From NCBI GenBank assembly GCA_024708885.1, contig JANJXT010000011.1, forward strand, positions 1 to 64,000: a stretch of DNA of 64,000 bases. Reading direction: 5' to 3'. How positions within the stretch are numbered: the stretch's first letter is position 1; the number at the start of each line of letters is the position of its first letter. The notes under the pieces were generated by a model. The model ran no database searches. It was not told the DNA's origin and was given only the letters and a program-made list of their open reading frames with translations. The translations under genes were made by a program, and so were the position numbers. Of the stretch, positions 31,952 to 49,059 are shown piece by piece. The DNA comes from Thiobacillus sp. (GTDB lineage: Bacteria; Pseudomonadota; Gammaproteobacteria; Burkholderiales; Thiobacillaceae).

Positions 31952-32968
31952 TCAGCGCTCGAGTGCATCCAGCGCCGCCAGTTCCCAGCGCGGGCGCACC
32001 GGAAACCCCATGTCGTCGACCGCAACACCCGCCGCCAAGCGCTGCGCGCCGGCGAAGGCGATCATCGCGCCGTTGTCGGTGCAGAATTCCAGGCGCGGAT
32101 AAAACACCTCGATGCCGCGCCGCGCGGCTTCGCGCGTGAGCTGCTCGCGCAGGCGTGCGTTGGCGCCCACTCCGCCCGCCACCACCAGCCGGCGCGCTCC
32201 GGCGTGCGTGCATGCGGCAAGGCTTTTGCCCACCAGCACGTCGACCGCCGCCGCCTGGAAGGCGGCGGCGATGTCCGCGGCCGACGCCGCGCCGGCCTTC
32301 CTGACCAGCGTCAGCACCGCCGTCTTGAGCCCGGAAAAGCTGAAATCGAAGTCGCCCGAATTGAGCATCGGCCGCGGCAGGCTGAAGCGGGCGGGGTCGC
32401 CGTTCGCCGCCAGCTTCGCCAGCGCCGGCCCGCCCGGATAGCCCAGCCCCAGCAGTTGCGCAGTCTTGTCGAACGCCTCCCCCGCCGCGTCGTCGAGCGT
32501 CTCGCCGAGCAGCGTGTAGCGTCCCACGCCCGCGACCTGCATCAACTGCGTATGCCCGCCCGACACCAGCAGCGCGACGAAGGGGAATTCGGGCGGCGCG
32601 TCGGAAATCAGCGGCGACAGCAGGTGCCCTTCAAGATGGTGCACCCCGACCGCGGGGATGCCCAGCGCATAGGCCAGCGCCCGTGCCATGCCGGCGCCCA
32701 CCAGCAGCGCGCCGGCCAGCCCCGGCCCCTGCGTGTAGGCAATGCCGTCAAGCTCTGACAGTGTGCAGCCACTCTCGTCCATCACCGCGCGTGTCAATGG
32801 GAGCACACGGCGGATGTGGTCACGCGAGGCGAGCTCGGGCACCACGCCGCCGTATGCGCTGTGCATCGCCACCTGAGAATGCAGCGCGTGCGCGACGAGG
32901 CCGCGCCCGGTGTCGTAGAGGGCGACCCCGGTTTCATCGCAGGAGGATTCGACGCCAAGCACCAGCAT
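31952..32968 (-). CDS. tsaD: tRNA N6-adenosine threonylcarbamoyltransferase TsaD
   Basis: 338-residue ASKHA-fold enzyme that, with TsaB and TsaE, adds threonylcarbamoyl to A37 of ANN-decoding tRNAs. The metal-binding HxEGH is in [14 protein letters not shown]. Nucleotide motifs are [27 protein letters not shown], and [16 protein letters not shown] chose the start at MLVLGVESS; the nine extra residues upstream do not fit. It is divergent from rpsU. Confidence 0.96.
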
Positions 32969-35571: not shown

Positions 35572-37485
<1,914 letters not shown>

Positions 37486-37525
37486 GCCACGGCCAGCCCC
37501 GCCCCGCGCGGGGCGCATCATTTTC

Positions 37526-37566
37526 GGGCCTGTAGCTCAGCGGGTCAGAGCGGGGGACGCATCGCC
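37526..37566 (+). pseudogene. tRNA-like 5' fragment (relic)
   Basis: Begins like a tRNA-Ile: GGGCCTG, then TAGCTCAGCGGGTCAGAGC as a D-arm. It breaks down after the D-arm: no matching anticodon stem, T-arm or CCA end follows. The eleven bases before and into it (TTTTCGGGCCT) are repeated at the start of the complete tRNA at 37715. It is probably a decayed relic from an earlier insertion or duplication in this tRNA locus. The GC dyad GCCCCGCGCGGGGC (37501-37514), which may end rpoD, lies just upstream. Confidence 0.45.
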
Positions 37567-37642: not shown

Positions 37643-37683
37643 GGGCCCATAGCTCAATTGGTTAGAGCAGCGGACTCATAATC
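37643..37683 (+). pseudogene. 5' half of split chromosomal tRNA-Ile2(CAU); attL
   Basis: GGGCCCA acceptor strand, D-arm and the 5' side of the anticodon stem (GCGGA), then the anticodon loop CTCATAA with anticodon CAT. After CTCATAATC (37675-37683) the sequence no longer matches a tRNA. Joined at that core to 47835-47870, it makes a perfect 77-nt tRNA: the acceptor GGGCCCA/TGGGCCC and anticodon stem GCGGA/TCCGT all pair. C4-G69 and C5-G68, as I recall determinants for the lysidine synthetase TilS, mark it as Ile2 rather than Met. Confidence 0.85.
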
Positions 37684-37714
37684 AGGTTGCCAGTGTAGGA
37701 AGATTCAAGTTTTC

Positions 37715-37791
37715 GGGCCTTTAGCTCAGTTGGTTAGAGCGCGCGACTCATAATCGCTCGGTCCCCGGTTCGAGCCCGGGAAGGCCCACCA
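37715..37791 (+). tRNA. element-borne tRNA-Ile2(CAU)
   Basis: Complete 77-nt cloverleaf with encoded CCA. The acceptor GGGCCTT/AAGGCCC pairs perfectly. The D-arm is GCTC/GAGC, the anticodon loop CTCATAA (anticodon CAT) and the T-arm CCCGG-TTCGAGC-CCGGG. The anticodon stem CGCGA/TCGCT has one C-U mismatch at 27-43. C4-G69 and C5-G68 favour Ile2 (lysidine-modified, reads AUA) over elongator Met, which has U-A and A-U there in E. coli. It differs at many positions from the split chromosomal copy, so it is not a duplication artefact. Confidence 0.88.
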
Positions 37792-37794
37792 ACC

Positions 37795-37816
37795 CCTTGG
37801 TTTCCAAGGCTTTTTC
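37795..37816 (+). terminator. terminator after element tRNA
   Basis: Hairpin CCTTGG-ttt-CCAAGG (37795-37809) followed by CTTTTTCT. It is part of a wider dyad GGTTTCCA / TGGAAACC (37799-37825). It would end the tRNA transcript before the convergent minus-strand genes. Confidence 0.7.
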
Positions 37817-37958
37817 TGGAAACCAGCCTTTACCCGACCGCCCCGCCATCCAGCCCCACCAAGGGGGCTAGGATTGGCGGTGGTGCAATCGGGGCCAGCT
37901 CTCCCAAAAAGCCGGTGGTGCAGATGGAGGTGCAAACACCCTCCCAGCCCAGCCGGGG

Positions 37959-38900
37959 TTACACCCCAGCCACCCCCAGCCCAGCGCGAGCCAGCCGGAC
38001 GCCTTCGCTTGCAAGGTCGCTGGCAAGGCGGAACAACTCGGCGGTGATGACCGGGCGCAGAGGGTCCAGCCCTACCGCGACGATGGCCGCCACTTGCAAC
38101 GACTGCCGCGCCCATTCGCCCTCCAGCCCGACCGGCCCATGCTCGCTGTAGGTGTCCATGTCCAAGCGCAGGAACAGGCGATACCAAGCGGCGGCGTCCT
38201 CGGTGACTTCGACCAGAACCTTTCCCCCCGCTTGGGCCAGGTCCGCCAGCTCGGCAAGACGACCCAGCAGCAAGGCGGACGGCTGCCCATGTGGTTGTCG
38301 GTTCTTCTCGCCCTTCGGCCCATGGTGCCGGATCATCAGGCACTGGCCGTAGAACGGGCTGCCCTCATACCAATGCGGCAGCAGGTATTCGAAATCATCC
38401 GGGGTCGATTCGGCCAGCAGGAACAGGGAGCCGTCTAGCAGCCGGTCGAAGGTCGCAGGCTTGACGATGCCGCGCACCCTATCCACATCCTCGGGTTCCG
38501 GCTCCATCCCGGCGAGCGCCAGATGGTTGAAGTGCTGGATGGCCAGCAGCCGCTGGGTGAAGGCCGAGGTGTCTGGGCGCAGCCTTTGCAGCCCGCCCAG
38601 CAGGGCATCGACCCCTTCGATAATCCCGCCCTTGCCGTGCGCCGGGTCGGCTACCAGCATGACGCTTTGCCCGATGGGCTGGGTCGTCGGGAAGTCCTCC
38701 GGCTCAAGGTGCGGCAGGACGCGGCGCACGGCTGATTCTGAGTAAAGGCCGATATGCGGCAACTCCCAGCCAGCGCCGACGATGGCCCCCAGCAGGGCAA
38801 TGGCCCCGCCCATTGCCATCCGGGGAGTGGCGACGGGGGCTTGTTCGTTGAGGTGCTGGGCAATCTCTCCGGCCAGCCCGGGAAGGTGAATCGCGTTCAT
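37959..38900 (-). CDS. small DUF3987-like protein (degenerate paralog of the next gene)
   Basis: 313 residues. Two stretches align with the DUF3987 half of the PrimPol protein encoded just upstream. One is VMLVADPAHGKGGIIEGVDALL (about 80-101), matching its LAKTGIGKEGGKQGINRLL loop. The other is QSLQVAAIVAVGLDPLRPVITAEL (about 263-286), matching its NALKVASVIGVGCNPYQPLVTVEH. The P-loop is altered (GKGG rather than GKT/S), so ATPase activity is doubtful. It starts 13 bp after the PrimPol stop behind a strong AAAGGAGAAG ribosome site. It may modulate the replication helicase (inference). Confidence 0.7.
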   Translation of the reverse strand: MNAIHLPGLAGEIAQHLNEQAPVATPRMAMGGAIALLGAIVGAGWELPHIGLYSESAVRRVLPHLEPEDFPTTQPIGQSVMLVADPAHGKGGIIEGVDALLGGLQRLRPDTSAFTQRLLAIQHFNHLALAGMEPEPEDVDRVRGIVKPATFDRLLDGSLFLLAESTPDDFEYLLPHWYEGSPFYGQCLMIRHHGPKGEKNRQPHGQPSALLLGRLAELADLAQAGGKVLVEVTEDAAAWYRLFLRLDMDTYSEHGPVGLEGEWARQSLQVAAIVAVGLDPLRPVITAELFRLASDLASEGVRLARAGLGVAGV

Positions 38901-38913
38901 GGTTGCTTCTCCT

Positions 38914-41145
38914 TTACCAGCTATGGCCGACGCAATAGGCCTTGGTGTCTAGTTTGAATTTCTCCCGGACTTGCTGCGGCGGTAGCTGTTGCAGTGCCCC
39001 GGCTTCGAGCAACGCCTTCAAGGTTTCGTCCAGTAGGCGGCGCTCATCCTTGAATGGCTGCACCCGCTTCAACTTTGCGTACAGGTACGAATGCGGGATG
39101 ACGCTGCCCGTTTGGAATGCCTTGGGCGTCTTGTAGGTCTCGCGCTTCTCGGGAGGCATGGCGAGGAAGTCAGCTACCGCTGTACGAATTGCCGCTTCGG
39201 CCTTGGCACCATCGCCGCCGCCGACCTCGCCTTTATCGAAGCGGGACTGAACGGCATGAACGCTGCGCCGAACAAACTCGACCGCCCAGCGGGCATGTTC
39301 AACGGTGACCAGCGGCTGGTAGGGGTTGCAGCCCACACCGATGACGGAGGCGACCTTCAAGGCGTTGAGGTGCGCCCGGTTCCATAGCTGGACCTCGGCA
39401 GCGTTCCCGCTGTTGATGTGGTCATCGCATTCCCTGTCAAAAGCATCCAGCAGGGCTTCCGCGTCAGCGGCGAGATGGACCTTTGCGAAGCTGCCGTTCT
39501 GCTCGCCATGGACGGCGACCGTAACCAGATCAGCAAACCGCCGAACCAGCGTCGCGTCCGGCTTGCCGCCAGCGTAGCGATTGCGCGGCGGGCGGCCTCC
39601 GGTGTATTCGATCACCAGCAGGCGAGGCACCAAGCCATCTTGGACCAAGGCGCTGTCGAGGCAACCGAAGAAGACCTCCGGGGTAGATTCACCGATGATG
39701 GTCAAGCTGGGGGCGCGAACTACGGCGGTGTTCTTCTCCTTGTCGCTGTATGCCTGCACACCTACGAAGCCATCCGGCCCGCTGCGCGAATACAGCGCCA
39801 GCAGTTCGCTATGCAGGGCTTGTTCTGCACCGGATGCCTTGGGCGTCGTGATGCGCTTGAGCGTATGGCCGAACTCGTCCAGCACCGAGTAGAAGCAAGG
39901 ACGCTCCTCGAAGTGCTTGACCAAGGCTTGCCCGGATGCAAACGAAGTCGGGCCAACAAAGCGGCTGACGGTCGGAATGCTGGGGCTGATCTCTGACAGC
40001 AAACGATTGATGCCCTGCTTGCCCCCTTCTTTCCCGATGCCGGTCTTCGCCAGCAGGATCAAGTAGAGGTTCAAGCCAGTAGGCAGTCCGCTGGTGTAAT
40101 AGGTGCGACCAACAACCCCGGCAACCAGTCCAAGCGCAGCCGAAAGCGCAACTTCTGGCACCGGGCGGATAGCCGAACTGTAGATGTACTGGGCCAGCTC
40201 GCCGACCAAGCCCGGAGGGGGCGGTAACTCGCCGGTAACGGGGCCTTCCAGCCGAGGGGCGAGGCTATGGGAGGGGGACGGGACGGGCGCTTGTGGCGCG
40301 GTTGCCACTTGGGCGGCTAGTTCCTCCATTGCCTCCAGATCGACCGGCACCGGCTCATTCGCCCTGATCTTGCGAAGCGCCAGATCAATCCGGTAATCGG
40401 TGCCCCGGTGCTTGTCGCGCTTGCCGAGGGCGGACATTCGGAACAGGCGCTTTACCTGCTCATTGCTGGGCGAGTAGAAAGCAAGGATCGCCAGCAACGC
40501 ATGATCCGCTTCGGACGCGCTCTCGTAGCCCAGCGCTGCCCATTCACCAGCGCATAGCAGGTTGAACTTGTCCCCGTTGATGGCGCGCATCGCCATCTCC
40601 ACAAGGCCGGCGTCGTCTTGCAGTTCCTCGCGCTCCTCCAGCTCAACTTGCGGGGCGGGCTTCATCTCGCCGTACAGCACGTCCAGCAGGTCTTGCCGGT
40701 CGGCAATCTCCAGCGGGCGCACTACGTCGCCGGTGAAGATCATGAAACGCTTGTCGGAATAGACCTCGACGCCATCCCGATGGACGCCAGCAGGCATCTT
40801 GCCGCGCACGACGATATGAACGCCGCGCCCGGATTGCGACCGCTCGGTGTAGCTGTCGAACTTTTCGATGATCTTGGCGAAGCGGGCCTTCTGCTCGTCG
40901 GTCGCCGGGCGCTCGGCTTTGTCGTCCAGATCGATGATGGTGTAGGGGTCGGATTCAGCCAGCACGAAGCCGACGCGCAAGCCGTACTGGTCGGCATAGG
41001 CGCAGGCAACATCGAAGGCCGCCCATGTGGTCGAATCAGTGACAGAGGCTGCGCCCCCGGTCTTCGGGTCTAGCGGCTTCTTATCGGCGGCCGCGACTAC
41101 CCATTGCGGAAGCTGTCGCAGCTCCAGCGGAATGTTGTTTCTCAT
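38914..41145 (-). CDS. PrimPol-DUF3987 replication protein (primase-polymerase/helicase)
   Basis: 743 residues, probably the replication initiator of the element. The N-terminal archaeo-eukaryotic primase-like domain (about 1-150) shows D72 and D74 in IDLDD, SQSGRGVHI (His110) and VEVYSDKRFMIFTG, the order seen in the NrS-1 phage PrimPol. A helical PriCT/HBD region follows (about 185-260, CAGEWAALGYESASEADHAL). The C-terminal DUF3987 helicase-like ATPase (about 310-690) has the P-loop-like LLAKTGIGKEGGK (about 364-376). The gene is second in an operon behind AlpA and faces the iteron region. Confidence 0.85.
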   Translation of the reverse strand: MRNNIPLELRQLPQWVVAAADKKPLDPKTGGAASVTDSTTWAAFDVACAYADQYGLRVGFVLAESDPYTIIDLDDKAERPATDEQKARFAKIIEKFDSYTERSQSGRGVHIVVRGKMPAGVHRDGVEVYSDKRFMIFTGDVVRPLEIADRQDLLDVLYGEMKPAPQVELEEREELQDDAGLVEMAMRAINGDKFNLLCAGEWAALGYESASEADHALLAILAFYSPSNEQVKRLFRMSALGKRDKHRGTDYRIDLALRKIRANEPVPVDLEAMEELAAQVATAPQAPVPSPSHSLAPRLEGPVTGELPPPPGLVGELAQYIYSSAIRPVPEVALSAALGLVAGVVGRTYYTSGLPTGLNLYLILLAKTGIGKEGGKQGINRLLSEISPSIPTVSRFVGPTSFASGQALVKHFEERPCFYSVLDEFGHTLKRITTPKASGAEQALHSELLALYSRSGPDGFVGVQAYSDKEKNTAVVRAPSLTIIGESTPEVFFGCLDSALVQDGLVPRLLVIEYTGGRPPRNRYAGGKPDATLVRRFADLVTVAVHGEQNGSFAKVHLAADAEALLDAFDRECDDHINSGNAAEVQLWNRAHLNALKVASVIGVGCNPYQPLVTVEHARWAVEFVRRSVHAVQSRFDKGEVGGGDGAKAEAAIRTAVADFLAMPPEKRETYKTPKAFQTGSVIPHSYLYAKLKRVQPFKDERRLLDETLKALLEAGALQQLPPQQVREKFKLDTKAYCVGHSW

Positions 41146-41163
41146 TTGAGCCGTCCCCGCTGG

Positions 41164-41361
41164 TTACTGTTGTGCGGCGCGGGCAGCTCGTTTATCTGCC
41201 AGCCATTGTTCAACAACTTCGCGGGGCCAGCCGACGCAGCGAGGACCGTACTTGATAGGCTTCGGAAAGATGCCCGTCCGCTGCCAGCGGTAAAGGGACT
41301 CTTGGGAAATGTTGAGCAGGGTAGCTACTTCGGGGTAGCGGAGGATCGCGCTCTCGGTCAT
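41164..41361 (-). CDS. AlpA-family transcriptional regulator
   Basis: 65-residue winged-helix protein with YPEVATLLNISQESLYRWQRTGIFPKPIKYG and the tail GWPREVVEQWLADKRAA, the classical AlpA/Excisionase-like (MerR-type) fold. In P4-like elements it controls integrase or excision genes. It is first of the minus-strand replication operon and lies next to the iteron region. I chose the internal ATG of MTESAILRY; the reading frame is open 33 codons upstream but without family support. Confidence 0.88.
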   Translation of the reverse strand: MTESAILRYPEVATLLNISQESLYRWQRTGIFPKPIKYGPRCVGWPREVVEQWLADKRAARAAQQ

Positions 41362-41705
41362 GGTTTTTTCTCCGTTCAAGTAATTGAAGCCATTACTTGC
41401 GCTACGGAGAGCACCGCTCTCTAAGGTACGGGCCTTGGCGAAGGCCTCGGATGCAGGCACAGCCTGCGCGCGATGGGGTCATTATAAAAGCGACCCTTTA
41501 TGAACTTCAAGTGAACATCGGATGCAATTCTCTTGCATATCAATCACTTAGAGTAGAATCCGGGTCTCCATATAAGGGCGCCCGTATCCGGTCCAGTCCT
41601 GGCCACAGGTGGGCCGGAGTCGCCGCCAAAGCGCCGGGGACCCCGCCATTACCCCGGATGTGCCCAGCCAAAAACCCAATGCCACCAAGGCGTTACCGCT
41701 GGTCT

Positions 41706-41808
41706 GGGGTACGGGGTACAAGGGGTACAGAAATACAGAGAGAGATACCCATATTAGATGAATCTTCATAACCCCCTACCCTAAGTACCCCATGTACCCC
41801 TGTACCCC
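41706..41808. repeat. GGGGTAC iteron array; candidate replication origin
   Basis: Six exact copies of GGGGTAC in two facing groups. Three are direct at 41706-41712, 41713-41719 and 41722-41728. Three are inverted (GTACCCC) at 41785-41791, 41794-41800 and 41802-41808. The spacing within groups is 7-9 bp. A 56-bp centre separates them, and an AT-rich tract (ATATATTTAGTAACC..., 41809-41860) follows. Iterons beside an AT-rich stretch next to a primase/helicase gene are the usual layout of a plasmid or satellite origin. Confidence 0.65.
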
Positions 41809-42207
41809 ATATATTTAGTAACCCCTTATATTTATTAAAGAAATCAACTTTTTGATTAGGGGTCCATCTGGGGTAAATGCGTATTCTTCTGTGCCCCCGC
41901 AAGTTCCAGACGATGACGCGACCGCTAGAACGGCATCTCTACCGGGAGCATGTCATTGGAGGCCAACCAGCAGCCGACGAGGGAGGCCCGCGACAGCGGC
42001 ACCAACCGCAAGCCTTTTGCCTTGGCCCAGCGGGGCGCTTGAGTCGATTACTGATGCTTGATGCCATCCGTCCAGCCCCGGCACCCGGCGCGGCAGGCGC
42101 GACCCGGTCGCCCCATGTGGTCATGCAGGAAAACAGGCGAGCGGATACATAGTCACCGGGTCCAGCAGGCGACCCGCGATTAGAAACAATGGCTTAGACC
42201 AACGCCC

Positions 42208-42427
42208 CGGTTGGCGGGGGTGCCTTACGGGGTAGGCTGGCCCCAGAAAAACCCCTCGCCACGGCCTTTTTGCCCCGTCCCCTCCCTACCCCATGCCCCA
42301 GCCCGCGAAATGGCCCCCACGCGCGGTTACGGCCCGTTACCGGCGGGGATGGGGGCCTTGGCTGGGCTTATGGGCCGGGATGGCCAGCCATGGCGGGCAA
42401 AGCATCGCCTTTCTGGGTGCCCCACTA
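42208..42427. repeat. intergenic module, copy 1 (upstream of HNH gene)
   Basis: Two motifs repeat in another gap of the element. Motif A is CGGTTGGCGGGGGTGCC followed by TTACGGGGTAGG (42208-42236). Motif B is GCATCGCCTTTC then GTGCCCCACTA (42402-42427). The second copy (43179-43243) has the same two motifs in the same order but only 10 bp apart instead of 165. They precede the two plus-strand genes HNH and DUF5681. Confidence 0.55.
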
Positions 42428-42489
42428 CCCAAGACTACCGAGAATGGAACTGTCCCCCTGCCCCGGAGCCGTCCGTAAGCAAGAGTGAC

Positions 42490-42560
42490 CAGAGCATCGT
42501 TCAAAGCCCGATGCACTGCCCCTTAAGGGCCTCGGATTCGTCTGAGGCCCTTTTTCTTTG
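42490..42560 (+). ncRNA. candidate small RNA ending in a strong terminator
   Basis: A first hairpin GCATCG / CGATGC (42494-42499 and 42509-42514) is followed 12 bp later by a terminator hairpin GGGCCTC / GAGGCCC and a T-run. No coding frame upstream has a ribosome-binding site, so the terminator may close a small untranslated RNA. A weak resemblance to satellite immunity RNAs (such as P4 CI RNA) is only an idea. No promoter box is clear. Confidence 0.35.
42527..42560 (+). terminator. Rho-independent terminator upstream of HNH gene
   Basis: Stem GGGCCTC (42527-42533) and GAGGCCC (42544-42550) with loop GGATTCGTCT, then TTTTTCTTTG. It insulates the HNH gene from upstream transcription. Confidence 0.8.
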
Positions 42561-42633
42561 CCTCAACAAACCAGTACCCGCATCTCGCTGCTCGTCGTGA
42601 ATATGGACCCATCCAGAAGCGAGGGGCGGACGA

Positions 42634-43128
42634 ATGAAGCAATGCAGCAAGTGCGGCGAGGTGAAGCCGCTGGAGGCGTTCGGAAAGCGCAAAGCATCAA
42701 AAGACGGACTGCGCTCTGAATGCAGGAAATGCAAGGCGCACGCCGCAGACACCTACCGCGAAGCTAACCGGGAGCAGGAGAGGGAGCGGGCGAAGGCATG
42801 GTATGAGGGGAACAGAGAGCAGCACGCTACCTCCATGAAAACATGGCGGGAAGCGAATCGCCCCCGTCGGAATGCGCTCATTCGAGCCTACAAGGCTGGG
42901 CTGGCGACGGCAACCCCCATGTGGTTATCGAAAGAGCAGCGGGACGCCATCGCCGCCATCTACGCCGAGGCCGACCGCCTGACCAGCGAGACCGGCATTC
43001 CGCACCATGTAGACCACATCATCCCGCTGAAGGGGAGCGGGGTCTGCGGCCTGCATGTGCCTTGGAACCTTCGCGCCATTCCAGCGGCTGAAAACCTGTC
43101 CAAAAGCAATCGCCTGATTCTTGATTAG
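42634..43128 (+). CDS. HNH endonuclease-like protein
   Basis: 164 residues. An N-terminal zinc-finger-like pair, CSKCGEVKPLEAFGKRKASKDG and CRKCK (four Cys), precedes a basic helical linker (about 45-95). A C-terminal HNH/His-Me core has HHVDHIIPLKGSGVCGLHVPWNLRAIPAAENLSKSNR, including the DH pair and Asn. Such proteins are common in phages, often near the packaging genes, and may act as a nickase or cos/pac nuclease. Strong GAGGGG site before the ATG. Confidence 0.8.
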   Translation: MKQCSKCGEVKPLEAFGKRKASKDGLRSECRKCKAHAADTYREANREQERERAKAWYEGNREQHATSMKTWREANRPRRNALIRAYKAGLATATPMWLSKEQRDAIAAIYAEADRLTSETGIPHHVDHIIPLKGSGVCGLHVPWNLRAIPAAENLSKSNRLILD

Positions 43129-43178
43129 ATGGTCTAGCCAAATTCTGCCCAGTCAATCAACGCGTTGGGCGTTCGGTT

Positions 43179-43243
43179 CGGTTGGTGGGGTGTCCCTCGG
43201 GGTTACCGAACGACACGGCATCACCTTTCCAAGTGCCCCACCA
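43179..43243. repeat. intergenic module, copy 2 (upstream of DUF5681 gene)
   Basis: Motif A variant CGGTTGGTGGGGTGTCCCT then CGGGGTTACC (43179-43207), and motif B GCATCACCTTTCC then AAGTGCCCCACCA (43218-43243), matching copy 1 at 42208-42427. A flanking perfect dyad CGTTCGGT (43170-43177) / ACCGAACG (43205-43212) encloses motif A. It sits directly upstream of the DUF5681 gene. Confidence 0.55.
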
Positions 43244-43294
43244 TTTTTACGGCGGGACCATAGCGGCAGCCCTGAGTTTTATTGGTTGCCGAGA

Positions 43295-43915
43295 ATGAAA
43301 ACACCACCATGGAAGCTGACGCCGGAGGCCCTGGCCCAGCAACAGGCCGAAGCTGCTGCCGCAGCAGACGCCCCCACCGAACACGCCAAAGGCATCGCCA
43401 AAGATGCCAAGACCGGGCATTTCGCCAAAGGCAACGCGGGCCGTCCGAAAGGCTCCCGCAACAAAGTGACCCTTGCCATCGAGAACATGATGGAAGGCGA
43501 AGCCGAGGCCATCACCCGCAGTTGCATCGACCTCGCCAAGCGCGGCGACCCGACCGCCATGCGCATCGTCATGGACCGCGTCTGCCCCCAGCGCAAGGGG
43601 CGCACGATTCCCAAGCTCGAGAAGCAAGAAGGCGAAACCAACATTGACGCGCTTCTCCGTGCAGTGCTGGACGGAGAGATTGCTCCCGAAGAAGGCAAGG
43701 AAGTCGTCGGCCTCATCGAAAGCGCTGCCCGTGTGGCTGCTACCCAAGTCCTCGCCGACATGCGGAAGCGCCAGATGGAAGCACTCCAGAAAGCAGCCGA
43801 CTCCGGCGGGGTTCCCGGCGGCGTCATGCTCGTCCCCATGCTGGGCGGATTGGACGACTGGGAAAGCGCCGTCCTCAAGCAGCAGCACCACCTCAAGATC
43901 ACCGTTAAGGAGTAA
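43295..43915 (+). CDS. DUF5681-domain protein
   Basis: 206 residues. The N-terminal signature GHFAKGNAGRPKGSRNKVTLAIENMMEGEAEAI (about 45-80) is the DUF5681 domain, frequent in phage and mobile-element proteins, whose role is not settled. A basic DNA-binding-like patch (RPKGSRNK) is followed by a helical C-terminus ending VPGGVMLVPMLGG. The start ATG has only a weak ribosome-binding site. It may act in packaging or as a DNA-binding partner of the HNH protein (inference). Confidence 0.75.
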   Translation: MKTPPWKLTPEALAQQQAEAAAAADAPTEHAKGIAKDAKTGHFAKGNAGRPKGSRNKVTLAIENMMEGEAEAITRSCIDLAKRGDPTAMRIVMDRVCPQRKGRTIPKLEKQEGETNIDALLRAVLDGEIAPEEGKEVVGLIESAARVAATQVLADMRKRQMEALQKAADSGGVPGGVMLVPMLGGLDDWESAVLKQQHHLKITVKE

Positions 43916-43920
43916 GCACC

Positions 43921-44604
43921 ATGCAATACCTCGTCAATTCGCCGGACGCTACCAGCTTCCTCGATACCGCCCAGCTGGACAGCGGCCTGTCCGCCATCCT
44001 CGGCGATCCCAAGGGCATCGACGCCCACGTTGCGCCGGACGTACAGAGCGCCCATATCACCCTCAAGGATGCGGCCAAGAAGATTGCGGCGCTGGTCGGC
44101 GACGCGACCCGGACGGAGGTTCAGAAACACGCCGCCGCCAAGCAGCTTGCGGAGAAGGTGACGAACCATCTGGAGAAGTCCAAGGCCGCGCTGGAGGCGC
44201 ACGCCGAGAAGCTGAAAGCATCGGCACTGGCGCAGGCTGATTTGCATCTCGGCCCCAGCTCGGACCGCAGCGTCCTGCATAGCGAGATTCGTAGCTGGGT
44301 GCGCGAGCAGGCTAAGACGCCGGAAGGGTTGCTGCAAGTGAAGCAGGCGATGGCGGACAACGACGACGTTGCAGCCATCCTCTGGCACTCGCCCTCGTTC
44401 CTCGTCGGGCTGGCTCCCAGCGTCCATGAAGGGCTGCGCCTCGAAGCCCTGCAATCGCGCAAGCCGGACCTCTACACCAGCCTGAGCAACAGCGTCGGCC
44501 TGTCAAAGCTGGCGGGCAAGTATGAAGCCGCCATCCGCAAGGTTGCGCCCAGCTTCTACACGCCCAGCCTCGCAGAACAGGCCAGCAAGCGCGTCGAGAT
44601 TTGA
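43921..44604 (+). CDS. unrecognised helical element protein
   Basis: 227 residues, largely alpha-helical. A long charged, coiled-coil-like stretch (about residues 45-110, with TRTEVQKHAAAKQLAEKV and KAALEAHAEKLKA) lies between globular ends. No family recognised. AAGGAG lies at a good distance before the ATG, and the gene follows DUF5681 after 5 bp, so it belongs to the same transcript. Confidence 0.65.
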   Translation: MQYLVNSPDATSFLDTAQLDSGLSAILGDPKGIDAHVAPDVQSAHITLKDAAKKIAALVGDATRTEVQKHAAAKQLAEKVTNHLEKSKAALEAHAEKLKASALAQADLHLGPSSDRSVLHSEIRSWVREQAKTPEGLLQVKQAMADNDDVAAILWHSPSFLVGLAPSVHEGLRLEALQSRKPDLYTSLSNSVGLSKLAGKYEAAIRKVAPSFYTPSLAEQASKRVEI

Positions 44605-44716
44605 CGGACTGGACACCCCCTCCGGCACCACCTCGCCGGAGGGGCGAACGCCAAGCCTTTGAGTAACCAAGGCGACCCGTCGCGGAACCGCCCGATTAAA
44701 GATTCGGAGACCCAAA

Positions 44717-45130
44717 ATGACCGCAGCCCAACAGGCCCTTTCCGCGCTGGCCGACTGGATCAAAGCCAGCAGCCAGAACTACCAGACCCGCCTTGCCATC
44801 GTTGAGCGCGGCCCGTTCGCCGTCCTCGTCCCGCTGGCCCTCGACCAAGCGCCCGCGCCGACCTTCGACCCCGAAGCCCTGCCCCTGTGGATACCCGAGG
44901 CACAGGCACCCGCCGACCTTCCGGCCATCGACACTAGCGCCCCGGCCAGCCAAGACCGCAAGGCGCAGCGCCTCGGGCATATCGTCTGGATGGTGCAGGA
45001 GGGGCGCTTTCCGGGCATCCAGCTCATTGACCTGACCGACCCCAGCGAAACGCTACAGGCGGCGCTTGACCGACAAGCCCCCGGCCTCGACCTCGACCAG
45101 ACCGCCGCCGTCTTCCTGCCTCGCTGGTGA
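44717..45130 (+). CDS. unrecognised small element protein
   Basis: 137 residues, with a Pro/Ala-rich middle (about 45-80). No family recognised; no motif or membrane segment is visible. CGGAGA is well placed before the ATG. It belongs to the plus-strand run of element genes; the next gene starts 4 bp after its stop. Confidence 0.6.
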   Translation: MTAAQQALSALADWIKASSQNYQTRLAIVERGPFAVLVPLALDQAPAPTFDPEALPLWIPEAQAPADLPAIDTSAPASQDRKAQRLGHIVWMVQEGRFPGIQLIDLTDPSETLQAALDRQAPGLDLDQTAAVFLPRW

Positions 45131-45134
45131 TTGC

Positions 45135-45605
45135 ATGGCCCGCCTCATCGCAAAGGAAGGGCCAGACTTGCCGCCGCTGTCGCCAGACCTGCGGCATACG
45201 CCCGCCGAAGCCATCCATAACCTGTTCGGCGCAGTCTTCATGCAGGCGCTACAGGAGCAGGACCGGGAATGGGTGGAGTCGCCCGACTACCTGCTGATTG
45301 CCGACTTTGCAGGGATCGACCTGGACCTAGCGGAGCGGGTGCGCCGCATGTTTCTTGCCGGGCAGATCAGGCCCGGAGCCTTCGCGGGTCTTGCTCCCGC
45401 CATGCCGCCCGACCGCATCCGTGCCGCCGCGCAGCCTTCGACCACTATCCGCCCCGTCGAGATGGTCCGGGCCATCGCCGCGACCATGCCCGATGCCAAG
45501 CCCAGCGAGGTAATCCGCGCCTGCATTGCCGCTGGGGTCAATCCGGCGACCGCCGCCACCCAAGTCCGCAGGTATCGAAAGGCGCTTGCTGAGTCGAATA
45601 ATTGA
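45135..45605 (+). CDS. element protein with C-terminal shared domain
   Basis: 156 residues. The N-terminal two thirds are not recognised. The C-terminal 55 residues (RPVEMVRAIAATMPDAKPSEVIRACIAAGVNP) align with the C-terminus of the next protein: both have RPxxxV, then V-I-A-x-C, then G-[VI], then TAxTQ and a basic end. I chose ATG at 45135, 4 bp after the previous stop; an upstream in-frame ATG at 45066 would overlap that gene. Confidence 0.65.
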   Translation: MARLIAKEGPDLPPLSPDLRHTPAEAIHNLFGAVFMQALQEQDREWVESPDYLLIADFAGIDLDLAERVRRMFLAGQIRPGAFAGLAPAMPPDRIRAAAQPSTTIRPVEMVRAIAATMPDAKPSEVIRACIAAGVNPATAATQVRRYRKALAESNN

Positions 45606-45699
45606 TCGCTTCCCCGAGTGCCACTGCTGCGGCCCAGCTTGATTATTGAGTCATCGAGCAGGGGAACGGCCCCTGACGCCAACCAGCAAGGGGAACATC

Positions 45700-46224
45700 A
45701 TGAAACTGTACACCGTCAAATCCTCCGCTCACCGCGCCGCTAAGCAGGCTGGCTTCGAAAAGGATCAGTACGAGATCGTCGAGGTCGATGGCCAGTTCGG
45801 CTTCCAGCCGATCGAAGCGGCCCCGGCCACCGAAGCCGAGGAGCCGGTGGTTGGCGAGTTCGTCCATTGCCCCCACTGCGGTATCCACCTGGAGAACGGC
45901 ATCTGGGTCCACCTGCAGGAAGTCAATGGCAAGGAGATCAAGCACAAGGCCTTCGAATACGAGTGCCTGGCCTGCGGCGAAGAGTTCGGCCCGGCCATCG
46001 CGGAGGAAGCTCCCAAGGCCGCCCCGAAGCGCAAGATCGAAATCACCAACCACTCGACCATCGAGCGCCCGACCAAGACCGTCTGGCACATCGCTGACGA
46101 GATGGTTGCGGCTAACCCGCAGGTCCGCCGCAAGGATGTGATTGCCGAGTGCGTGAATCGCGGCATCGCCTTCTTCACGGCGCGGACGCAGTACCAGAAG
46201 TGGAAGCAAAATCAGGCGACCTGA
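45700..46224 (+). CDS. zinc-ribbon element protein with shared C-terminal domain
   Basis: 174 residues. A zinc ribbon is visible in the middle: HCPHCGIHLENG (CxxC) and YECLACGEEFG (CxxC). The C-terminal part (RPTKTVWHIADEMVAANPQV, then VIAECVNRGIAFFTARTQYQKW) repeats the fold of the previous gene's C-terminus. The strong AAGGGGAAC site supports the start. The two adjacent proteins with one common domain may share a nucleic-acid or protein target. Function unknown. Confidence 0.7.
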   Translation: MKLYTVKSSAHRAAKQAGFEKDQYEIVEVDGQFGFQPIEAAPATEAEEPVVGEFVHCPHCGIHLENGIWVHLQEVNGKEIKHKAFEYECLACGEEFGPAIAEEAPKAAPKRKIEITNHSTIERPTKTVWHIADEMVAANPQVRRKDVIAECVNRGIAFFTARTQYQKWKQNQAT

Positions 46225-46250
46225 TTTTTAATTCTCCGGTCCTCGACGAA

Positions 46251-46289
46251 AACGCCCAGCCCAGACAAGGGGTTGGGCGTTTTGCTTTT
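46251..46289 (+). terminator. terminator at the end of element plus-strand genes
   Basis: Stem AACGCCCAGCC (46251-46261) and GGTTGGGCGTT (46271-46281) with one G-T pair, loop CAGACAAGG, then TTTGCTTTT. It closes the plus-strand run convergent to the integrase gene. Confidence 0.8.
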
Positions 46290-46323
46290 CATTCGGGGTC
46301 CGGCTGGGGGTGGCCCCGGCCTT

Positions 46324-46408
46324 CGTAACCGCGATTTAAGGGGGTTTCTGGGCGGGGCTATAGGGGAGGGAGGGGAAGGCCCCGTTCGCGGGGTATAGCG
46401 CGGTTACG
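46324..46408. repeat. inverted CGTAACCGCG / CGCGGTTACG pair
   Basis: Perfect 10-bp inverted repeat (46324-46333 and 46399-46408), 65 bp apart, between the terminator and the integrase stop. The same CGCGGTTACG occurs at 42322-42331. All three are in non-coding DNA of the element, which suggests a protein-binding site. Its binding protein is unknown. Confidence 0.5.
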
Positions 46409-46426
46409 GGGGCCAGGGGCGGGAAG

Positions 46427-47656
46427 TTAGGCCGGGACTTCGGCCCCTTCCTCGGTGGGGGCTGGGACTTCGGCGGGCTTGGGATCGGTTAGGCTGGCCA
46501 CATGCTCGGCCCATGCCTCAATGGCCTGCCGCGCCTCGGCGTCGTACATGTGCTGGTTATAGACTGATGCCGTCACGTCAGCGGCTGGCGGGGTATGCGC
46601 CAAGATGCGCTTGATGACCTCGGCCCGGACACCCAGCTTCGCCAGACCGGAAGCGCAGGTGCGGCGCAAGTCATGCAGCCGCCAGTCGGCGACCGGCTCT
46701 CCTAGTTCCTCGCTCATGTACTGGTCCAGCGTCTGCTTGGCCTTGCCCCAGCCGTTGATGGCTACCTTGCCGTTGGTAGTAAAGACAAAGGCGCACTTGT
46801 CGAAACGCGGACGGCCTTCGATGATGGCTTGCGCCTTCTTCGATAGCGGGGCGCGGTAATCGCGGCCTGCTTTCATGCGCGAGGCCGGGAGGCTGGCCCA
46901 TTCACCGCTCACCTCATCCCAGCGCAACAGCCCCGCCTCGTCGCGGCGCATACCGGACAGCAGCAGAAGGCGGGTGCAGTCGCCAAAGGCCCCGCCGATA
47001 AGCCCGGTTGCCTTCCAGAGCGCCTTAACCTCGTCGTCGGTCAGGATGCGGGTCCGGGCTTGTGGCTTGTACCGCTGCGCAATCCCGACGACCGGATTGA
47101 CCTCGACAATCTCCCGCTCCAGCAGCCAGTTAAACATCTTGGAGAGGTACGCCCGCAGATGGTTGGACTGCCCCGGCGTCTTGGCGGCGACCTTCTCCAG
47201 CAGATCAACAATATCGCGGCGGCGAATGTCCTTGACGGGCCGATCCTTGAACTCGGGGATAGCCAGCCGCACAAAGGCGCTCTCGATTTGCTCCCATGAC
47301 TTCAGCTTCGGCTTGCAGTACTTCTTGACGAAATCCTTGGCGCAAGCCTCGAAGCCGCTATACAGCCGTTCCCGTTCCTCGGCCTTCTTGTCTTCTACGG
47401 GGTCTTCGCCTCGCTGGACAGCGGCGCGGGCTTCCCGGGCGCGCTCCCTCGCCAGCTTCAATGTCACGCCCGGATAAACGCCCAGCGACAGGCGGCGCGG
47501 CATACCCTTGACCCGGTAAGTGAAGCTCCATGACTTGGTGCCGGATGGCAGCAGCCGGAGGACCAGCCCCGGCACTTCACCGTCATAAACGTCTTTGCGT
47601 GTTGCAGGCGTCGGCATCTTCTCGATAGCCGTCGCGGTAAGTTTGATGCTCCCCAT
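46427..47656 (-). CDS. tyrosine-type integrase of the element
   Basis: 409-residue P4-family integrase. N-terminal arm-binding domain about 1-95 (DUF4102-like: GVYPGVTLKLARERAREAR). The core-binding domain is about 100-200. Catalytic residues are Arg237 or Arg238 (LSGMRRDEAGLL), Lys262, His328 and Arg331 (HDLRR), His354 (ILAHTPP) and nucleophile Tyr366 (SVYNQH). The gene lies 170 bp inside the right junction and reads inwards. A GAGGGGACGATT site precedes the ATG. Anticodon-loop tRNA targeting is known for some integrases of this group. Confidence 0.92.
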   Translation of the reverse strand: MGSIKLTATAIEKMPTPATRKDVYDGEVPGLVLRLLPSGTKSWSFTYRVKGMPRRLSLGVYPGVTLKLARERAREARAAVQRGEDPVEDKKAEERERLYSGFEACAKDFVKKYCKPKLKSWEQIESAFVRLAIPEFKDRPVKDIRRRDIVDLLEKVAAKTPGQSNHLRAYLSKMFNWLLEREIVEVNPVVGIAQRYKPQARTRILTDDEVKALWKATGLIGGAFGDCTRLLLLSGMRRDEAGLLRWDEVSGEWASLPASRMKAGRDYRAPLSKKAQAIIEGRPRFDKCAFVFTTNGKVAINGWGKAKQTLDQYMSEELGEPVADWRLHDLRRTCASGLAKLGVRAEVIKRILAHTPPAADVTASVYNQHMYDAEARQAIEAWAEHVASLTDPKPAEVPAPTEEGAEVPA

Positions 47657-47825
47657 AATCGTCCCCTCATGGTGGTTGGGTGGGTGGTGCGACTGGGGGC
47701 GATCTTTAATAAACCCCCATGAAGGGAAATTTTCAGGACGATTTGGGTAAAAGGCACCGTAAAACAAGGGGTTGGACATCACCATTGAAGGTTTATGAAG
47801 TCCTTTGAAATCCTATGGCTCCGGT

Positions 47826-47870
47826 CTCATAATCCGTTGGTTGCAGGTTCAAGTCCTGCTGGGCCCACCA
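47826..47870 (+). pseudogene. 3' half of split chromosomal tRNA-Ile2(CAU); attR
   Basis: Core CTCATAATC (47826-47834) then CGTTGGTTGCAGG, the T-loop TTCAAGT, CCTGC and TGGGCCCACCA: the 3' side of the anticodon stem, variable loop, T-arm, acceptor and CCA. The sequence before the core belongs to the element (TGGCTCCGGT) and cannot form a 5' tRNA half. It pairs with the 5' half at 37643-37683. Confidence 0.85.
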
Positions 47871-47941
47871 TGTTCGCTTGCGCAGCGCTGGTGCGTCGGT
47901 ACAGCGGCGGTGCACGAGCCCTGTTCTGGAGCAACCGAGAG

Positions 47942-48115
47942 GGCGACTATCGTCAAGACACCCTCTGGCACGTGGAAGGTGGTCATCCGCAAGACGGGAT
48001 GATCGACTCCGGCCAAGACCTTCCGCACCAAACGCGACGCCGAGGATCGGGCGCGGCGCACCGAAGACGAATTGGTGCGCGGCGCTCGGCTCGGCTGCAT
48101 GGACCAGACAGGCGC
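47942..48115 (+). pseudogene. integrase N-terminal fragment (relic)
   Basis: In one frame the DNA reads ATIVKTPSGTWKVVIRKTG, an in-frame TGA, then PAKTFRTKRDAED-ARRTEDELVRGARLG. This is the N-terminal part of a phage-type tyrosine integrase (cf. the usual KTFRTKRDAEDWARRTEDEM pattern). It has a stop in place and no catalytic domain, so it is a decayed remnant, different from the intact integrase of the element. It lies directly outside the right junction. Confidence 0.6.
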
Positions 48116-48241
48116 GGTGAGCGCGATGCGCTCATCGCGGCGACGGCACTGGTGCACGGCATGGCGGTGGTGACGCGCAATGTGGCCGATTTCAAGCCGA
48201 CGGGCGCATCCGTCGTCAATCCGTGGGAGCCATCCTCATGA
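48116..48241 (+). pseudogene. VapC-like PIN toxin C-terminal fragment (relic)
   Basis: About 40 residues, RDALIAATALVHGMAVVTRNVADF followed by VNPW, match the C-terminal part of PIN-domain VapC toxins (with the acidic Asp of DALIAATA and N-x-x-DF). The N-terminal Asp of the active site is missing, and no antitoxin is near. It abuts the integrase remnant, so it is a fused piece of debris rather than a working gene. Confidence 0.6.
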
Positions 48242-48474
48242 CCGCCTGCTCCAGCGGCACAAAGCGTGGTTTTGCCCAATTTCGCCACGCTGCGCGGGCG
48301 GCACTGTAGTTTTCCCGCCACGTGCCGTTATGTCACTGATGGGTCGGGGCGCTCCCGCCTAACTGTTAAAATCGCGTGACATCAGACTCCCGGCCAACGG
48401 CGCGGGGGTCGTCTACAGGTCTGCCATGCATACCGCACGCCATGCTCTTCGCCCACAAAAACAGGGAGAACTCG

Positions 48475-49059
48475 ATGGAAGGTGAAGCCAGAAAACGCGG
48501 TGAACGTCGTTTGCAAATCCTGCAGACGCTGGCCGCGATGCTGGAGGAACCGCAGCCGGAAAAGATCACGACCGCGGCGCTCGCGGCGCGTATCGGCGTA
48601 TCGGAAGCGGCGCTCTACCGGCACTTCTCCAGCAAGGCGCAGATGTACGAGGGGCTCATCGAATTCATCGAACAGACGCTGTTCGGGCTGATCGCCCGCA
48701 TCACGGCGGAAACGCCGGCGGCCACGGCGCAGGTCGAGGCGATCGTGGCGATGCTGTTGAATTTCGCGGCGAAGAATCCTGGCATGACGCGCGTGCTGAT
48801 CGGCGAGGCACTGGTGCACGAAAACGAGCGCCTGCAAAAACGCATCAACCAGCTGCACGACCGCATCGAGGCGCAGCTCAGGCAATGCCTGCGCCTCGGC
48901 GGCGACCGCCTCGCCGAGCACAGCGGGCCGCTGGCCAATCTGCTGCAATGCGTGGTGGTGGGGCGCTGGCACCAGTTCGCCAAGAGCGGCTTCACGCGCG
49001 CCCCGGGCGGCGACCTCGAGCTGTTGCTGGCGCGCCTGCTCGACGCTCACCCCGCCTGA
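48475..49059 (+). CDS. slmA: nucleoid occlusion factor SlmA
   Basis: 194-residue TetR-type protein that, bound to its DNA sites, blocks FtsZ assembly over the nucleoid. The HTH is in TTAALAARIGVSEAALYRHFSSKAQMYEGLIEFIE, as in the family, and the C-terminal helical domain is complete. I chose the ATG after AGGGAGAA; an earlier in-frame ATG adds 33 unlikely residues. Its 3' end overlaps the convergent moeB-like gene by 13 bp. Confidence 0.92.
   Translation: MEGEARKRGERRLQILQTLAAMLEEPQPEKITTAALAARIGVSEAALYRHFSSKAQMYEGLIEFIEQTLFGLIARITAETPAATAQVEAIVAMLLNFAAKNPGMTRVLIGEALVHENERLQKRINQLHDRIEAQLRQCLRLGGDRLAEHSGPLANLLQCVVVGRWHQFAKSGFTRAPGGDLELLLARLLDAHPA

Follow-up and report, generated by a model that had tools for sequence, protein, structure and literature searches.

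A small integrative island that splits tRNA-Ile2(CAU) in a Thiobacillus genome and carries a complete copy of the gene

In a 64,000-nt stretch of a Thiobacillus sp. genome (assembly GCA_024708885.1, contig JANJXT010000011.1, positions 1 to 64,000 of the forward strand; hereafter the window), a tRNA-Ile2(CAU) gene downstream of rpoD is split in its anticodon loop by a 10.2-kb element. This element, a single unit running core to core from 37675 to 47834, is very probably an integrative island that inserts at the tRNA-Ile2 anticodon loop, breaks the gene and compensates for the loss with a complete copy of its own. The 5′ half of the split gene (37643..37683, + strand), as read from the sequence, ends in the 9-bp core CTCATAATC at 37675-37683 (attL), and the orphan 3′ half (47826..47870, + strand) begins with the same core at 47826-47834 (attR). 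When the halves are rejoined, they form a 77-nt gene, which ARAGORN recognizes as a complete CAU tRNA.

At the left junction, the gene is not restored. The core is followed by 31 other bases, which constitute the end of the element and not a tRNA 3′ half (37684..37714, + strand), and then by a complete tRNA-Ile2(CAU) gene, the putative rescue copy (37715..37791, + strand; ARAGORN; 65.8 bits with RF00005). The split gene and the intact one have the same base at 58 of 77 positions, and both carry C4/C5 and G68/G69. The rescue copy is followed by a terminator-like hairpin, CCTTGG-TTT-CCAAGG-C-TTTTT (37795..37815, + strand; read from the sequence), which is also found 3′ of the tRNA in locus L225. 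Neither junction rebuilds a functional tRNA, the left one leading into the spacer and the right one holding the 3′ half only. A preliminary description of this DNA had reported the split gene, the unrestored left junction with a complete, divergent tRNA 31 bp inside, and an element that destroys a tRNA gene while supplying a whole substitute; the coordinates, sequence, halves and core were found as described, the junction likewise, and the third claim is supported. Chance or misassembly is unlikely to lie behind the arrangement, because the half, spacer, full tRNA, distant orphan half and adjacent integrase recur in six other elements and because rpoD and a TetR-type gene flank the site as in relatives.

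Including that of the window, seven elements are complete, each having both tRNA halves and, at its right end, an integrase (the others being L063, L216, L217, L218, G664 and G775); they measure 7.5-15.9 kb core to core. L063 comes from the same genus as the window, while five belong to the gammaproteobacterial side (L216 in Neptuniibacter, L217 in Cellvibrio, L218 in Spongiibacteraceae, G664 and G775). In all seven, the left core leads into a spacer of 19-31 bp and not into a tRNA 3′ half, and the full tRNA starts 19-32 bp after the core in 15/15 left-end modules. ARAGORN identified all 15 element copies and all seven rejoined split genes as complete CAU tRNAs with C4C5/G68G69. The halves of L063, a 7.5-kb element whose integrase is 24% identical to that of the window, rejoin into exactly the tRNA of the relatives G004, G023, G030 and G033. 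The integrases form three groups, consisting of the window and G664 (64% identity over 406 amino acids), L216, L217, L218 and G775 (73-86%), and L063 alone, with 23-28% identity between groups. G664 also keeps the gene order of the window element, with identities of 41% over 243 amino acids for the primase, 52% over 69 for AlpA and 44% over 233 for the DUF5681 protein. A scan of genome contigs for the core closely before a full tRNA returned at least 115 stretches. Among the matches listed, 13 combine a tRNA 5′ half that terminates in the first core with a full gene showing the acceptor bases of Ile2; ten of these were traced and L100, L123 and L172 left out, a single pattern search having found nothing in L123 and L172.

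The same locus was compared in relatives that lack the element, as the preliminary description had proposed. Among 35 same-genus genomes queried, 11 returned the locus, and all 11 carry an intact tRNA-Ile2 after rpoD, the order in relatives being rpoD, tRNA, TetR; none of them has two CAU tRNAs and the element's tRNA is absent from these loci. The TetR-type gene starts 51-56 bp past the tRNA in eight of the 11 and 254 bp past it in G004, and no TetR match was found in the 9.4 kb downstream of the tRNA in G033. In G010, whose TetR protein is 98% identical to that of the window, the tRNA and the TetR gene are separated by an 11-kb island. This island (L067), situated behind an intact native tRNA-Ile2, contains defence-type genes, Wadjet-like and type I methylase-like by reading of its open reading frames (ORFs), and no integrase among the listed ORFs of at least 200 amino acids.

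In the window, the rpoD ORF ends at 37485 and is followed by an intergenic stretch (37486..37525, + strand), right after which the genus-native tRNA-Ile2 site starts according to the gene order in relatives. This native position, 40 bp after rpoD, is occupied by a decayed 5′ half of a genus-type tRNA-Ile2 (37526..37566, + strand, right end approximate; BLAST E 8.3e-6 and fuzzy search), in which GGGCCTGTAGCTCAGC is identical to the native gene and is followed by substitutions. The native type has the anticodon stem GGGGA/CCCTT and the split gene GCGGA/CCGTT, the latter being found at 0/11 same-genus loci. Hence the gene split here is probably not the original tRNA of the genus, and the earlier claim that the host's tRNA was split holds for the split but probably not for a genus-original gene, since the genus-type tRNA survives only as the upstream relic. 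In the simplest order of events, the native gene would have been broken, a foreign-type gene installed, and the latter broken in turn when the present element arrived with a copy of its own. The second of these steps, in which an earlier element would have brought the foreign-type gene, is suggested by the native relic and the sequence type, and the rpoD site appears to have gone through tRNA replacement more than once. Beyond the orphan half lies a 432-bp remnant without a match in the G010 stretch (47871..48302, + strand), which appears to encode a PIN-domain C-terminus (PF01850, E 6.3e-4, under the curated cut-off) and is possibly what remains of an older element; similarity to G010 resumes from about 48303, before the TetR-type gene that forms the native right flank (48475..49059, + strand). 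Remains of an older integrase after 47871 were also considered and rejected, the candidate being a short peptide with no plasmid match and no convincing Pfam match.

The assembly of the window genome comprises 2.56 Mb in 67 contigs and is 84% complete. RF00005 gave 38 matches in it, and ARAGORN found three CAU tRNAs on the fetched loci, namely the element copy and, by reading, the elongator and initiator tRNA-Met. No second Ile2 gene was seen in this 84%-complete assembly, which agrees with the dependency proposed earlier as far as the assembly reaches, and tilS is present. In all 13 other carrier genomes examined by pattern search (10/10 and 3/3), the element-side copy is the only Ile2-type gene found; this search left out the half-plus-full loci L100, L123 and L172. 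Three of the carriers, G664, G743 and G775, have one contig about as long as the genome.

The left end of these elements is also found in a phage context. A 35.5-kb IMG/VR record (IMGVR_UViG_2836913034_000002, loci L224/L223) encodes a tail sheath, baseplate, tape measure, major head, terminase and integrase, and next to the integrase it carries the core at 32363, a 28-bp spacer and a full tRNA-Ile2 with no 5′ half, as expected of an attP site. The L223 spacer is identical to that of G743 at 28/28 bases, and left-end modules thus seem to be passed around among phages and islands whose integrases are unrelated. This contractile-tailed phage may be a candidate for tRNA-dependent lysogeny outside Actinobacteria. 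A stem of 7-13 bp between leader and trailer surrounds the rescue tRNA in 8/15 modules, and 18/210 cross-pairs reach at least 7 bp, many of them from identical modules; in G664, G775, G743, L218, L221, L222, L223 and L229, the complementary leader and trailer change together between elements.

A second IMG/VR record, L231 (IMGVR_UViG_2675903445_000010), is a relative of the window element, with a 99% identical integrase and five blastn segments of 74-97% identity, and is inserted in the anticodon loop of tRNA-Thr(UGU) (positions near 1837 and 11397 of the reverse complement). Its right end is joined to a tRNA-Thr(UGU) 3′ half at CTTGTAATC. The left side has a second tRNA-Thr 3′ half and a terminator-like stretch, next to which lie the final 15 nt of a window-type Ile2 copy. 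A pattern search of the record revealed no further tRNA-Thr 3′ half, and there is no tRNA gene in the first 12 kb of the record. The left Thr half could either restore the target or have belonged to a Thr rescue gene that is now broken. The window and L231 may therefore represent a target switch within one element lineage, which would have left a 15-nt Ile2 scar in L231.

Three other explanations of the window arrangement were weighed. If this were an ordinary tRNA integration, a 3′ half brought by the element would make the gene whole again at attL, and the full tRNA nearby would be a coincidence or a host duplicate. This is how tRNA-targeting islands usually treat their target according to the accessible text of PMC4383910, and the left side of L231, with its core contiguous with a tRNA-Thr 3′ half, could be such an end. 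However, ordinary integration is highly improbable in view of the seven complete elements, none of which has a tRNA 3′ half after the left core (spacers of 19-31 bp) and all of which carry the full copy at a nearly fixed distance from it, and of element-free relatives of the same genus with one CAU tRNA at the site. The full tRNA could instead derive from the host, the element having entered the first gene of a tandem Ile2 pair or the host having duplicated the gene, which would be in keeping with rescue and split genes that are identical (77/77) in L216 and L217 and agree at 71/77 positions in L063 and G664. This origin is very unlikely, as the 19-32 bp between the core and the second gene in 15/15 modules are too short for a whole first gene, of which about 36 nt of 3′ half would be needed, as spacers and trailers are common to elements of different hosts and to the tailed-phage record, and as none of the 11 same-genus loci has two CAU tRNAs.

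Lastly, the element tRNA may be unneeded, neutral cargo, with AUA read by another gene, either an overlooked Ile2 or a tRNA-Ile(UAU). Phages carry tRNAs for other reasons too, and the window assembly is incomplete. Yet by pattern only the element-side Ile2 is present in 13/13 other carriers, including the three with a contig about genome-long, TilS is kept in the window genome, and the cloverleaf and identity positions are intact in 15/15 copies, so that a neutral copy is hardly credible.

If the island does break and replace tRNA-Ile2, its integrase would recombine the 9-bp core of the attachment site with the same nine bases in the host gene. Integration would break the AUA-reading tRNA gene because the core is too short to bring the 3′ half, and the element would compensate with the complete tRNA-Ile2 31 bp from the core. 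The rescue copy would then come immediately after the host 5′ half and, presumably, stand downstream of the host promoter, with the terminator-like hairpin behind it. Expression of the element tRNA from that promoter, its lysidine modification, its charging and the need for it are presumed. Precise excision would rebuild the split gene, whereas decay of the host halves or damage to the element would make the element tRNA the permanent gene of the host. The -35/-10 score upstream of the host half reaches 9-10 of 12 in 5/14 modules (G775, L218, L217, L222 and L229) and that inside the half plus spacer is 6-7 in 14/14, which fits, at the level of sequence, a transcript that would start at the host promoter and run across the dead half into the rescue copy.

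Several points weigh against this reading. The upstream score is only 6-8 in the other nine of the 14 modules, and both Thiobacillus cases score 6 upstream and 7 in the half plus spacer, with no good promoter in either place; the score itself is crude, has no shuffled control and sets longer upstream stretches against shorter inner ones. At 84% completeness, the assembly could lack a second Ile2 gene. A divergent Ile2 or a tRNA-Ile(UAU) would escape the pattern searches, which require exact D-arm matches and leave the distinction of Ile2 from Met to judgement. The trait is rare, being found in 1/399 sampled genomes of the window's own order (the window itself) and in 4/390 of the order of G068 (the centre G068 together with G664, G743 and G775). 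In L231, the element is joined to half of a tRNA-Thr(UGU) gene instead, and all that remains of the Ile2 copy is its final 15 nt. Finally, the identical copies of L216 and L217 mean that a recoded rescue copy is no rule; a recoded tRNA escaping the integrase had been suggested by the window and L063, in which the anticodon stems differ, and was rejected as a rule on these grounds.

That the host depends on the element, as proposed earlier, is retained in conditional form only, since in each of the seven complete cases the split gene would be whole again once the element excised precisely. The dependence looks permanent in G743 and in G065 (Parasulfuritortus), because no host 3′ half was found there. 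In G743, neither an orphan half nor a related integrase was detected in 79.6 kb, and sequence 95% identical to the G664 flank returns about 4 kb after the tRNA, the simplest reading being that the element decayed and its tRNA was retained. In G065, a search of the 32.7 kb up to the contig end gave no orphan half, and the genes beyond the tRNA look chromosomal by reading. It is an evenly balanced question whether these loci belong to a ratchet, in which each newcomer would break the resident essential tRNA and install its own promoterless copy under the resident promoter, and in which decay would leave an element-derived sole AUA reader as the next target. The window locus would then record up to three generations (native relic, split foreign-type gene and current rescue copy), and G743 and G065 would represent the fixed end state.

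The principle of breaking and replacing a tRNA is already known from phages, and the window element would work like tRNA-dependent lysogeny in a carrier not shown to be a phage. According to the accessible text of PMC10865867, tRNA-dependent lysogeny was described in 2024 in the actinobacteriophages Fionnbharth, Cain and Gaia, with the Gordonia phages OneUp and Mollymur using tRNA-Ile2-CAT, and its requirement was proven by mutants; outside Actinobacteria, the authors mention one Lactobacillus prophage and ask how common the trait is. Both systems have an arm-domain tyrosine integrase, a core of about 10 bp in a tRNA gene and a tRNA that is not rebuilt. In contrast to those temperate phages of Actinobacteria, for which the requirement was shown experimentally, the elements presented here are Beta- and Gammaproteobacterial islands of 7.5-15.9 kb known from sequence, with no capsid or tail genes among the proteins scanned, a tRNA right beside the core and stacked or permanent replacements. 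In Sinorhizobium meliloti, a host tRNA gene is knocked out by a phage-related sequence, which brings in a similar isoacceptor resembling those of unrelated bacteria (PMC11476347, accessible in part), while this substitution was not found in phiLM21-like prophages (PMC12429752, likewise). There too, a host tRNA gene is inactivated and replaced; however, that case is phage-related and alphaproteobacterial, and the accessible text describes no mobilizable island with a rescue tRNA.

Islander-type islands share the tRNA target, the tyrosine integrase and the displaced fragment at the far end, but in the accessible account they restore the target (PMC4383910), whereas here a whole gene is supplied. 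Phage-inducible chromosomal islands (PICIs) in tRNA-Ile2 are described as lacking alpA (PMC10111431, accessible in part). The present elements resemble PICI and P4-like satellites in AlpA, primase, integrase, small size and a weak small-terminase similarity in the window and G664 elements; they differ in that no packaging module was shown here, while the accessible text describes no rescue tRNA and its PICIs lack alpA (PMC10111431). Further related literature, also accessible in part, includes PMC3293823 and PMC13015707. No rescue tRNA in a mobilizable island was found in the literature searched, which mostly excluded subscription journals. The new aspects are that the islands lack recognised capsid or tail genes, that four of seven carry relaxases, that the same layout occurs with integrases as little as 23-28% identical, that the rescue tRNA lies 19-31 bp from the core and that some sites seem to have been taken over repeatedly or for good. 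The breaking and replacement of an essential tRNA looks like an integration strategy of general use and not an actinobacteriophage habit, with carriers in another phylum that are not recognisably phages, some with relaxases or defence genes, and offers a route by which foreign genes can replace core tRNA genes. The window/L231 pair, with 99% identical integrases, different target tRNAs and an Ile2 scar, provides a concrete case for the relation of replacing to restoring systems, a question left by the mBio authors in the text accessible.

The gene content of the window element is that of a small integrative island, possibly a phage satellite. On the - strand, the rescue tRNA is followed by an ORF resembling part of a phage primase family (37959..38900; phrog_3022, E 5.1e-16), a primase/helicase-type replication protein with DUF3987 (38914..41145; phrog_3022, E 8.5e-197) and an AlpA-family regulator or excisionase (41164..41460; PF05930, E 7e-11). 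The + strand encodes an endonuclease VII-like (HNH) protein (42634..43128; phrog_1035, E 1.8e-26), a DUF5681 protein that weakly resembles a small terminase subunit (43121..43915; PF18932, E 4.4e-6; phrog_5334, E 8.2e-7) and four ORFs without named function within 43921..46224 (43921-44604, 44717-45130, 45066-45605 and 45646-46224). Relatives of all four are found in L231, that of the ORF at 45066 also in G664 and that of the ORF at 45646 in L225. The tyrosine integrase (46427..47785, - strand; Arm-DNA-bind_3, Phage_int_M and Phage_integrase) lies just inside the right end. Of the satellite-type genes, AlpA, primase and integrase are present and the packaging side amounts to the weak small-terminase-like match; no capsid, tail, large terminase or relaxase match was obtained with Pfam and phrog profiles among the ten ORFs scanned. 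By tblastn, the integrase matched 326 phage and 846 plasmid records, all below 60% identity, while the primase, used as query for related loci in viral contigs, found no relative. When two left ends were compared with phages by blastn, the matches among those listed (15 of 1110 and 10 of 585 records) overlapped tRNA genes or lay close to them.

The cargo of the other complete elements varies. Relaxases are present in four of the seven, L063 carrying Mob_Pre with RepL, L217 MobA/MobL with RnlA, G775 MobA/MobL, and L218 MobA/MobL with PD-T4-5 and RmrT; L216 carries TrbL and an N6/Eco57I-type methylase. The scanned ORFs of these six elements, a subset of their ORFs, matched no capsid or tail family, and one ORF of L218 has a weak endolysin-family match (E 6e-4). 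A primase 51% identical to that of the window lies beside a half-plus-full tRNA-Ile2 pair in L226, the contig of which is titled Klebsiella pneumoniae MAG TH-11nov19-3; its neighbouring genes are un-Klebsiella-like by reading and the label may be wrong. In a Porticoccus metagenome-assembled genome (L221+L220), the layout around a half-plus-full pair is different: the integrase gene comes immediately after the tRNA, on the same strand, and about 39 kb of sequence showed no orphan half. A comparable pattern of tRNA-Met, which emerged from the scan for Ile2 modules, was set aside, no displaced 3′ part having been traced: the Met 3′ end occurs once in nine of 11 genomes searched, twice in one (G075, whose second copy is possibly the displaced half) and not in the remaining one. 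In this pattern, seen in Lysobacterales and relatives (L093, L098, L114, L119, L135, L138, L169, L187 and others), an elongator tRNA-Met truncated after the variable loop directly precedes a full tRNA-Met, and several of the loci have a TACAAT-like box between the two.

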